A DNA stretch of 64,000 nucleotides. Source: Nitriliruptoraceae bacterium. Its GTDB lineage: Bacteria > Actinomycetota > Nitriliruptoria > Nitriliruptorales > Nitriliruptoraceae. This document shows, one piece after another, positions 10,387-13,664 of this stretch. The DNA lies in the NCBI GenBank assembly GCA_018401275.1, contig JAGYKW010000006.1:1-64000 (forward strand), read 5' to 3'. The notes beneath the pieces are model-generated. The model did not search any database and was not told the DNA's origin. It saw only the letters and a program-made list of their open reading frames with translations. Position 1 is the first letter of the stretch. Each line of letters opens with the position of its first letter. The translations under genes and the position numbers were made by a program.

Positions 10387-11718
10387 GTGAGCGCGCCTGG
10401 TGGGTCGCAGCGGCCCTCGCCGCGACCTCGGCCACGGTCCTGCTCGTCGTCGGGCTGCTCCCAGCGTCCGACCAGACGCTGAACGGGCAGGGTGCAGGCC
10501 AGGCCGCGGGGCCGGGTGCTCCCGACCCGGTGCGCGAGGCGCGGATCGCCGAGGCGCTCACGTTCGACGATGGCCTGCTCGCCGACGTCGCCGCCTACCG
10601 CCAGCCGCGTCGCGCCCTCACGCTCGCCTCACGGGCGATCGGCGTCGGCGTCCCGCTCGCCATCGGGGTCGCGCTGCTCCGACGACCGCGCGGCGCACGC
10701 AGCTCGCGCGTGGTCGCCGCCGTCGCTCCGGGCTCTCGAGCGGCTCCCGAGCCTGCCCGTGCAGGTCGGCGCCGCCGCGAGCCTGGTCGTGCTCGCGACC
10801 GCGCTCGTCCGGCTGCCCGTGAGCGTCGCGGCCGGCGTCGTGCAGGACGGTGTCTGGGGCTTCCGGACCCGGTCCGTGCCCGGCTGGGCGCTCGACCACG
10901 CGTTCGTGGTCACCGGCCGTGCGTTGGGTGTCGGTCTGCTCGCGGCTGCGGTGAGCGCGCTGATGCTGCGCCACCCACGCACCTGGCCGGCGCGCGCGAC
11001 CGTGCTCGTCGCGCTCATCGGTCCGCTCGCGCTGCTGCTGCACCCGCTCGTCGTCCATCCGGTGCTGCTCCCGACAGGGCCTCTGCCCGACGGCGAGCAT
11101 CGAGATGCGGTCATCGCCGTCGTCGCCCGCAGCGGCCTCGACGTCCCCGTGCTGCTCGGTGAGGCCAGCCTGCGCACCACCCGGCGCAACGCGGTCGTCA
11201 CGGGGCTCGGACCGACGCAGCGCATCGTCCTGCACGACACGCTGCTGGAGCTCGGCCCGCGCGAGGTCGCCGCGATCGTCGCCCACGAGCTGGCTCACGT
11301 CGAGCGCTCCGACCCGCTGCGAGGAGTGCTCGCGCCCGTCCCGCTGGTGCTGGGGGTCGGCCTGCTGGCGCGGCGTCGGATCGCCGGGCGCGCAGACCTG
11401 CGTGGGGCCGCGATGGTCGTCGCATTCGTGCTCGCCGTCGAGGTCGCGCTGACGCCGGTGAGCGCCGGGGTGTCGCGCACGATCGAGCACCGCACCGATG
11501 TGCGCTCGGTCGCGCTCAGTGGTGACGCGGACGCGCACGTCCTGCTGCTGCGCACGTTCGTCAGCGACGGGTTGGCCGACCCCGATCCGCCCCGCTGGAG
11601 CGTGCTGCTGTGGGCGACGCATCCGGCGCCGGCGCGACGCATCCGTGCCGTGATCAGCGCGACCGACGAGCCTTCGGCGCCACTCCTGAACTCGCCGGCG
11701 TCCCACGCCACGCGCTGA
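10387..11718 (+). pseudogene. M48-family membrane metallopeptidase (Ste24/HtpX-like), frameshifted
   Basis: A CAAX-protease-like membrane peptidase split over two frames. Frame A (from about 10387 to about 10700) encodes a TM helix (AALAATSATVLLVVGLL), then the family-typical LTFDDGLLADVAAYRQPR and a second TM. Frame B (about 10700-11718) encodes further TM helices, the zinc motif HELAH in IVAHELAHVERSDPLR, and the downstream SRTIEHRTDVRSVAL, whose Glu is the likely third ligand. A one-base shift between about 10690 and 10740 would join them. No in-frame ATG precedes the first TM in frame A; the ATG at 10337 is in a third frame, so a second indel is possible. It is either broken or mis-sequenced. 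It ends convergently with a 65-bp overlap with the photolyase-like gene. Confidence 0.7.
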
Positions 11719-13009
11719 ACGACGACACCTTCGCGCCGTCCGGACGTCGCAGCCACGGCCACGGGTGACGCTCGACGACCGGGAGCAGCGCAGCACGCCG
11801 TCGCCAGCCCGGCACCGGCGCGGACGTGGCGGCGAGCGGACGTGCGGCCGCTCCGTCGGCCCCGAGCGTCGCAGCGACGTCGCCGCGCCACACCTCGACG
11901 TCACGCCGGGCCGCAAGGTCGCCGAGCGTCTCGGCGAGGAACACGAGTCGGCGCGGATGCAGCTGCAGGCGGGCGAGCAGTGGCGCGTCGAACACGAACA
12001 CCACGGGCAGCGACGGATGCGCGGCGAGCGCCGGGTCGGCGTCCCCGAGCGACTCGGCGGTCATCCACACCGCCTGCGGTGCGGGTGCGTCCGGAGCGCG
12101 CTCGACGCTCACCGGCCCTGCCGTCGCGGCGGGATCGGGGTCGTGGCGCAGGCGCGGGTCCGGTCCGACGGGGACGAGCGCCGGGTCCTCCGGCCAGTCC
12201 GCGATCGGGCAGTCGTGGCGCAGCAGGCAGGAGCCGCACAGGCCGGGGGCTCGCCGCTCGACCTGCGAGCGGGAGAACCCGTAGGGCCGGCCCGTCCCCG
12301 TGCCGACCGTCCACTGCCAGCCGAGCCGGTTCGCGGCGCGTGAGCCGTCGAGCAGCTCGCGGTAGAGGCGGTCCTCGCCGTCGCGCCAGTCCGCCCCACC
12401 ACGTACCGCCCAGTGCGAGGCGACCCACATGCGCGTCTGGTTCACGAGCCAGCCGTCCCGGTCGAGCTCGTCGAGCACGACGTCCATGCACGCCATGCCG
12501 TCGGTGCGGGCCGTCGTCCACGGGTCGCCGGTGGAGGTGGGCGGCGTCGGGACGCCGGCGAGCGCATGCCGCAGCGGCTGACGCGTGGCGGTCCCGAGCC
12601 GCGCGTACACGTGGCGCGCGTACTCCTGCCACAGCAGCTCATCGCGGAACTTGTCGCGGTCGCGCGCCGGAGCGTCGCCGGCGATGCGCCACAGGGTCGG
12701 CAGGTCGATGAGCCCGTGGCGCACGTAGGGCGACAGGCCCGTGGCGCCTCGCGCCGACTCGGGCAGGACCTCGCTGCGCTGTGACGCGTAACCGGTGAGG
12801 TCGAGGGTCGCGAGCGCGGCGTCGGCCGCACCCTGACCGCCACGGAATCGGCCGCTCGCGATCGGTGCACCATCGGGCACAGGTCGAGCGAGGTCGCCGA
12901 GGTGCGTGCGCGTCCACGCGACGACCGCATCGATGCCGCCGCTCGCCCCATCGCCCGGGTCGGGCGGCACGGGCAGGCGGGACGGGACGACGTCGACCGG
13001 GTCGCTCAT
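11654..13009 (-). CDS. Photolyase/cryptochrome-like protein with swapped domain order
   Basis: 451 residues from the ATG at 13007-13009 (a longer frame to 13093 only adds DEQP repeats). Residues about 50-240 match the FAD-binding domain of DNA photolyases: GRFRGGQGAADAAL (53-66), GLSPYVRHG (91-99), ELLWQEYARHVY (124-135), DGWLVNQTRMWVASHW (185-200) and ANRLGWQWTVGTGTG. Next comes CGSCLLRHDC (258-267), a possible Fe-S or zinc cysteine set. Only afterwards, at about 311-420, comes a segment like the photolyase N-terminal alpha/beta domain: VWMTAESLGDADPAL, PVVFVFDAPLL, RRLVFLAETLGDLAAR, VWRGDV. This order is the reverse of canonical photolyases. Light-driven repair or photosensing is inference. 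Confidence 0.75.
   Translation of the reverse strand: MSDPVDVVPSRLPVPPDPGDGASGGIDAVVAWTRTHLGDLARPVPDGAPIASGRFRGGQGAADAALATLDLTGYASQRSEVLPESARGATGLSPYVRHGLIDLPTLWRIAGDAPARDRDKFRDELLWQEYARHVYARLGTATRQPLRHALAGVPTPPTSTGDPWTTARTDGMACMDVVLDELDRDGWLVNQTRMWVASHWAVRGGADWRDGEDRLYRELLDGSRAANRLGWQWTVGTGTGRPYGFSRSQVERRAPGLCGSCLLRHDCPIADWPEDPALVPVGPDPRLRHDPDPAATAGPVSVERAPDAPAPQAVWMTAESLGDADPALAAHPSLPVVFVFDAPLLARLQLHPRRLVFLAETLGDLAARRDVEVWRGDVAATLGADGAAARPLAATSAPVPGWRRRAALLPVVERHPWPWLRRPDGAKVSSFSAWRGTPASSGVAPKARRSR
11659..11683. repeat. 25-bp direct repeat, copy 2 (inside the 3' overlap)
   Basis: Identical to 10350-10374. It codes ATDEPSAP in the M48 peptidase and, on the other strand, the C-terminal residues of the photolyase-like protein. 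Confidence 0.75.
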
Positions 13010-13048: not shown

Positions 13049-13127
13049 GGAGCGTACGACGCTCGCTCTACGCTCCGAGGCGCCAGGAGCCATCGCTCAC
13101 GTGCTGCGTGAGCATCGAGGAGGCGTC

Positions 13128-13664
13128 ATGTCGGAGGAGCCGGAGGACGGGCGCGTCCACTATCGCCGTCATCGTGCCCGCCCGATCGACGCGCCGCCGG
13201 CTGCGGTGTGGCCGTGGCTCGTGCAGATGGGCTACGACCGCGGCGGCTGGTACGCGATCGACGTGCTCGAGAAGGCGTTCGGTGTCGGACGGTTCGCGAC
13301 CGGCTGGTCCGCTCGACGCGTCGAGCCCGACCTGCAGGACCTCGCCGTCGGCGACCGCATGCCGCTCACCGCGACGCGCTGGCTGGACGTGACCGTGATG
13401 GACGCGCCGCACGAGCTCGAGCTCGTGATGCCGCCGGGACTGCTGACCTGGACATGGCGGTTCACGCTGGAGCCGCTCGAGCCGCACTCGCAGCACGCGC
13501 ACGGCAGGACGCTGCTCGGCATCACCACCGAGTTGAGCGTGCGGGCGCGCAGCGTCCCGGCGCGTCTTGCCGCCCGGGTGGCGTTCGCCGCGTTCGACCT
13601 CGGCCACGGCCTGATGGAGGCCGTGCAGCTGCGCACGCTCGCACGCCGTATCCCTGCCGCCTGA
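13128..13664 (+). CDS. SRPBCC-family (START/Bet v 1-like) protein
   Basis: 178-residue soluble protein. The start ARPIDAPPAAVWPWLVQMGYDRGGWYAIDVLE is the typical opening of SRPBCC ligand-binding proteins (beta strand, then PxxxVWpWLxQ helix), and later strands follow (TATRWLDVTVMDAPHELEL, WRFTLEPL). The ligand is unknown. The ATG at 13128 is chosen for GAGGAGG at about 13117-13123. It is divergent from the photolyase-like gene, so shared control is possible. A GCGCCGGCCG(C/G)A tandem repeat follows the stop (13664-13695). Confidence 0.8.
   Translation: MSEEPEDGRVHYRRHRARPIDAPPAAVWPWLVQMGYDRGGWYAIDVLEKAFGVGRFATGWSARRVEPDLQDLAVGDRMPLTATRWLDVTVMDAPHELELVMPPGLLTWTWRFTLEPLEPHSQHAHGRTLLGITTELSVRARSVPARLAARVAFAAFDLGHGLMEAVQLRTLARRIPAA

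Follow-up and report, generated by a model that had tools for sequence, protein, structure and literature searches.

A photolyase-type protein from Nitriliruptoraceae with its FAD domain first and a shortened alpha/beta domain last, a probable CPD photolyase

The locus and its relatives

The window considered here is the whole stretch of DNA that was analysed, 64,000 nucleotides from a contig (JAGYKW010000006.1) of a Nitriliruptoraceae bacterium (GCA_018401275.1). The gene of interest lies on the minus strand, runs from an ATG at 13009 to a stop codon at 11654 and encodes a photolyase-type protein of 451 amino acids (Table 1); translation might alternatively begin at an in-frame ATG upstream, at 13093. 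The 3' ends of this gene and of a convergent Peptidase_M48-type gene (10492-11718, plus strand) overlap by about 65 bases (11654-11718). Divergent to the photolyase gene is an open reading frame of 178 amino acids (13128-13664, plus strand), which has no Pfam match and is conserved beside the photolyase gene at the related loci L001, L003, L004, L014, L131, L132 and L138.

A scan of GTDB species genomes yielded 246 stretches that encode relatives. The best 80 of these were retained; they are mostly actinobacterial, with one from Myxococcota. Among these best 80, complete and intact homologues with 52-69% whole-protein identity occur at 76 loci, and together with the window protein they make up the family alignment of 77 sequences used below; their C-terminal parts were also aligned separately.

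Table 1. Features of the photolyase gene and related genes. Coordinates are positions in the window unless preceded by a genome or locus label.
Feature	Coordinates	Strand	Evidence or remark
CDS, reversed-order photolyase, 451 aa	11654..13009	-	ORF list and translation
N-terminal FAD (catalytic) domain, residues about 50-275	12185..12862	-	Pfam, PDB and profile matches
Interdomain linker, residues about 276-311	12077..12184	-	Low conservation in family alignment
Shortened alpha/beta (DNA_photolyase/antenna-type) domain, residues about 312-436	11702..12076	-	hhalign, PF00875 in relatives, fold search
C174, fourth putative Fe-S ligand	12488..12490	-	Conserved in 77/77; column of first FeS-BCP ligand
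C258-x2-C261-x5-C267, three putative Fe-S ligands	12209..12238	-	100% conserved; align with FeS-BCP C-x2-C...C
Class I photolyase, same genome	G000:C1:183100-183567
FeS-BCP, same genome	G000:C1:331958-332491
FeS-BCP gene beside family gene, Myxococcota	L023:2452-4071	-
FeS-BCP gene beside family gene, Cellulomonas	L032:1525-3006	+
FeS-BCP gene beside family gene, Acidimicrobiales	L059:2-322	+
FeS-BCP gene beside family gene, member of the window's own family	G005:C25:32715-33332	-

Domain order

A preliminary description of this gene had placed FAD-domain motifs in the N-terminal part of the protein and, after about residue 310, a stretch resembling the alpha/beta domain found at the N-terminus of canonical photolyases. 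The FAD-domain motifs are indeed present. FAD_binding_7 (PF03441) matches residues 121-240 (12290-12649) at E 1.9e-16, above the curated Pfam cut-off, and the photolyase models of NCBIfam match there too. Residues 75-239 match the FAD domains of class I photolyases in the PDB (E 3e-16), and the profile match for the domain reaches E 9e-24.

The C-terminal half is more divergent. In a single-sequence scan, this half of the window protein had no Pfam or NCBIfam match, and the N-domains of PDB cryptochromes were matched by sequence profile at E 0.11 only, as might be expected if the stretch were unrelated and the reversal a chance reading of motifs. Such an explanation is, however, extremely improbable in light of the family as a whole. 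A profile of the 77 C-terminal sequences aligned to the N-terminal domains of 25 canonical photolyases taken from related genomes with an hhalign probability of 96.6 (P 5.1e-10), against a probability of at most 0.7 in the controls (the profile reversed, eight profiles with shuffled columns, and the FAD domains of canonical photolyases). The full family profile, aligned to full-length canonical photolyases, produced two local alignments, both significant and in exchanged order: query positions 19-221 fell on 375-580 of the template, and 287-398 of the query on 202-337. PF00875 was weakly matched by the C-terminal parts of 22 of the 77 members (at best E 0.0041, which does not reach the curated cut-off), while every other Pfam family was matched by one of the 77 at most, and relatives from Deinococcus match PF00875 in the same place at E 7e-4 and 1e-3. 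AlphaFold produced a confident model of the whole protein (pLDDT 93.7, pTM 0.93) and modelled the C-terminal domain alone at pLDDT 86; in a Foldseek search with this lone domain the 19 best PDB matches, none of them below E 0.001, were all photolyases or cryptochromes.

Because the profile comparison, the swapped alignments, the family-wide Pfam matches and the fold evidence agree, the reversed domain order is real: the FAD domain comes first and the photolyase alpha/beta domain last. The stretch after about residue 310 is thus a relative of the photolyase N-terminal domain, as the preliminary description had supposed, although the DNA_photolyase match anticipated there failed to appear in the single-sequence Pfam scan of the window protein and emerged only at the level of profile, fold and family. 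The circular permutation considered there would be one possible description of such a transposed domain, if the two domains pack against each other as they do in canonical enzymes. The same order, sought in other genomes, is shared by at least 76 intact relatives from independent genomes, and a frameshift or assembly artefact fusing two genes was therefore excluded.

Four cysteines and a putative Fe-S cluster

The cysteines C174, C258, C261 and C267 are present without exception in the 77 aligned proteins. An earlier suggestion that a set of cysteines might hold a cluster is supported by the family alignment, but its count of three was wrong, as C174 had been missed. In a profile alignment to the catalytic halves of FeS-BCP proteins, all four stand opposite the FeS-BCP [4Fe-4S] ligands. 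In a joint alignment, cysteine occupies the four ligand columns in 20/20 sampled family members, in both Deinococcus sequences and in all 12 FeS-BCP sequences; it is absent from them in the 14 class I photolyases and the two alphaproteobacterial inverted relatives. From these equivalences we infer that the window protein carries a [4Fe-4S] cluster, with C174, C258, C261 and C267 as its putative ligands.

Substrate site and electron-transfer residues

The roles of the lesion-contacting residues, the flavin-facing asparagine and the electron-transfer tryptophans are established for class I enzymes. Site residues in the window protein were mapped through the A. nidulans enzyme (1owl) and the joint alignment. 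The lesion-contacting residues are of the CPD type: E124 (E. coli E274), W127 (W277), N190 (N341) and M194 (M345). They are invariant in the 77 proteins, which come from many actinobacteria and one Myxococcota genome, and N190, M194 and E124 form the class I CPD pattern in every family row examined. The flavin-facing asparagine is also kept, as N227 (E. coli N378). In FeS-BCP sequences, the residues in the columns of E124, W127, N190, M194 and N227 are Q, W, H, L and N, respectively.

Two tryptophans of the classical electron-transfer chain are kept (W231 and W208), but the third (W314, E. coli W306) is replaced by T155, and the electron-transfer chain must therefore differ. A further change concerns S223 (codon 12341-12343), which is serine in 77/77 and corresponds to the FAD-contacting Asp382 of the A. 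nidulans enzyme; this column holds aspartate in class I photolyases and in the Deinococcus and alphaproteobacterial relatives.

Distribution, gene neighbours and phylogeny

In a sample of the phylum, the family was present in 19 of 296 genomes, so its distribution is patchy. An FeS-BCP gene adjoins the family gene in four genomes of different lineages (Table 1), an arrangement consistent with a role in photorepair; none of the flanks of these four loci contained a class I photolyase gene. Phage copies were limited to distant matches restricted to the FAD domain.

More distant relatives were found in Deinococcus and alphaproteobacteria. Two plasmid-borne Deinococcus genes (L140:1453-2823 and L143:1306-2679) encode reversed-order photolyases with the four cysteines, and their C-terminal domain aligns over nearly the whole of the canonical alpha/beta domain, which is shortened in the window family. 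Among seven alphaproteobacterial sequences, no homology of the C-terminal domain to that of the window family or to the canonical alpha/beta domain was detected.

In an unrooted tree, the window family, the class I photolyases, the Deinococcus sequences and the alphaproteobacterial sequences each form one clade, and the FeS-BCP branch is long and distant from the family. The deepest split separates Deinococcus and alphaproteobacteria from the window family and class I. Inverted copies thus lie on both sides of this split, which in an unrooted tree is compatible with a polarity in which the reversed order came first. That the reversed, Fe-S-bearing order is indeed the older, and that the class I order arose by movement of the alpha/beta domain to the front, nevertheless seems rather unlikely.

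Comparison with known photolyases

The preliminary description correctly noted that canonical photolyases have the opposite order, yet its implied claim of novelty is not supported. The architecture is not new because enzymes of inverted topology have been published since 2020, and the window protein is a further actinobacterial case of the architecture reported as NewPHL (2020), SPL (2021) and Phr4-5/Phr6 (2022). NewPHL and SPL enzymes are described as having an inverted topology and repairing CPDs in single-stranded DNA (PMC13274461).

By published cysteine positions and spacing, the closest published architecture appears to be that of Phr6 and the split Phr4/Phr5 of Cyanobium and marine Synechococcus, which have the same FAD-first order with the photolyase domain second, together with four cysteines (PMC9426592). 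The cysteines of Phr4 from Synechococcus RS9916 (C169, C254, C257 and C263; PMC9426592) are spaced almost identically to C174, C258, C261 and C267 of the window protein. Phr4/Phr5 were suggested to repair (6-4) lesions, and phr4/phr5 improved the UV-C survival of E. coli, although the light dependence was not significant (PMC9426592). In contrast to these proteins, the window protein is a single fused actinobacterial reading frame with a shortened C-terminal domain and CPD-type residues.

NewPHL (Emmerich et al., 2020, doi 10.1093/nar/gkaa1147), as described in citing papers, resembles the window protein in its inverted topology, its length of about 400 amino acids and its CPD-type FAD domain. 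A difference from the window family is that the alphaproteobacterial relatives examined here lack the Fe-S cysteines and have a C-terminal domain without detectable similarity. The short photolyase-like proteins (SPL; Xu et al., 2021, doi 10.1093/molbev/msab191) are described in PMC9649867 as having no alpha/beta domain, whereas the window protein has one at its C-terminus. SPL and the window protein nevertheless probably share a family, which is also present in Williamsia, a genus near Rhodococcus (L045, L051 and L065). Some SPLs also carry four Fe-S cysteines, and the SPL of Rhodococcus fascians reportedly has FAD, Fe-S and CPD activity.

The FeS-BCP or prokaryotic (6-4) photolyases (PhrB, CryB) share four cluster cysteines at equivalent positions but have the opposite domain order and His-type substrate residues in place of the Asn/Met type of the window protein. 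Membership in this group was rejected: in the window protein Pfam finds FAD_binding_7 alone, with no N-terminal PF04244 domain, and the lesion site lacks the histidines of the HHIQR motif (N190 and M194 in place of H and L). With class I CPD photolyases (E. coli PhrB, A. nidulans 1owl) the window protein shares the FAD domain and the lesion-contacting residues, while class I enzymes differ in their opposite order, their lack of Fe-S cysteines, their complete alpha/beta domain and their third tryptophan.

Proposed function

Domain identity and order, conservation, the equivalence of the cysteines and the CPD-type site residues were established by computation. As read from these sequence features, the window protein is quite probably a light-dependent CPD photolyase that belongs to the inverted NewPHL/SPL/Phr6 kind and contains FAD and an Fe-S cluster; the light-dependent flavoprotein of the preliminary description is likewise supported as probable by the photolyase FAD domain (E 1.9e-16). 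The N-terminal domain would bind FAD and a flipped-out pyrimidine dimer, and upon absorption of blue or near-UV light the reduced flavin would donate an electron to the dimer, which would then be split. The four cysteines of the FAD domain would bind a [4Fe-4S] cluster, probably with a structural function, where bacterial (6-4) photolyases have theirs. The shortened C-terminal alpha/beta domain would probably cover the FAD domain and may or may not carry an antenna pigment. Counting against this reading are the changes at the third tryptophan and at the FAD-contacting Asp382, the (6-4) repair proposed for Phr4/Phr5, and the lack of a significant light dependence in E. coli with phr4/phr5.

That the protein is instead a (6-4) photolyase, as proposed from the four cysteines for cyanobacterial Phr4, Phr5 and Phr6, appears improbable. 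The cysteines do occupy the FeS-BCP ligand columns, the same residues from which that proposal was argued, and loss of Phr4/5 was more harmful after UV-C than after UV-B (PMC9426592). However, (6-4)-type residues are absent from the window protein, where N190 and M194 replace His and Leu and E124 replaces Gln; an FeS-BCP is already encoded in the genome, and SPLs are described as CPD enzymes (PMC9649867). It is likewise improbable that the protein descends from photolyases but has no repair activity and serves as a cryptochrome-like light sensor or as a redox protein. The missing third tryptophan, the change in one FAD-contacting residue and the divergence of the C-terminal domain would fit such a protein, but the lesion-contacting residues are invariant in the 77 proteins, the gene adjoins an FeS-BCP repair gene in four genomes and CPD repair is reported for related NewPHL/SPL members.

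A CPD photolyase of the inverted kind can also be placed alongside the other photolyases of this organism. The 1.73 Mb genome has three photolyase-type genes, and since two of these encode a class I photolyase and an FeS-BCP, the reversed-order protein is a third, distinct enzyme. With candidates for duplex CPD and (6-4) repair already present, the reversed-order enzyme would have a role of its own if it preferred single-stranded DNA, as NewPHL/SPL are reported to do. We infer such a preference, along with FAD occupancy, CPD repair and the role of the C-terminal domain.

Meaning for the photolyase family

In the literature, one subset, SPL, is described without an alpha/beta domain and another, Phr6, with a reversed one (PMC9649867; PMC9426592). 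The present comparison suggests that the Fe-S-bearing members of the SPL and Phr6 types form one architecture, in which the alpha/beta domain was moved rather than lost. New here are the support that profiles and structure give to the relocated domain in both actinobacteria and Deinococcus, the near-complete form of that domain in Deinococcus, the prediction of CPD rather than (6-4) repair from site residues and the FeS-BCP gene neighbourhood. For the Fe-S members, CPD and (6-4) repair now stand as two predictions open to test. More broadly, inverted photolyases matter for the question of whether, in the photolyase/cryptochrome family, the antenna-type domain and the Fe-S cluster are ancestral or were acquired.
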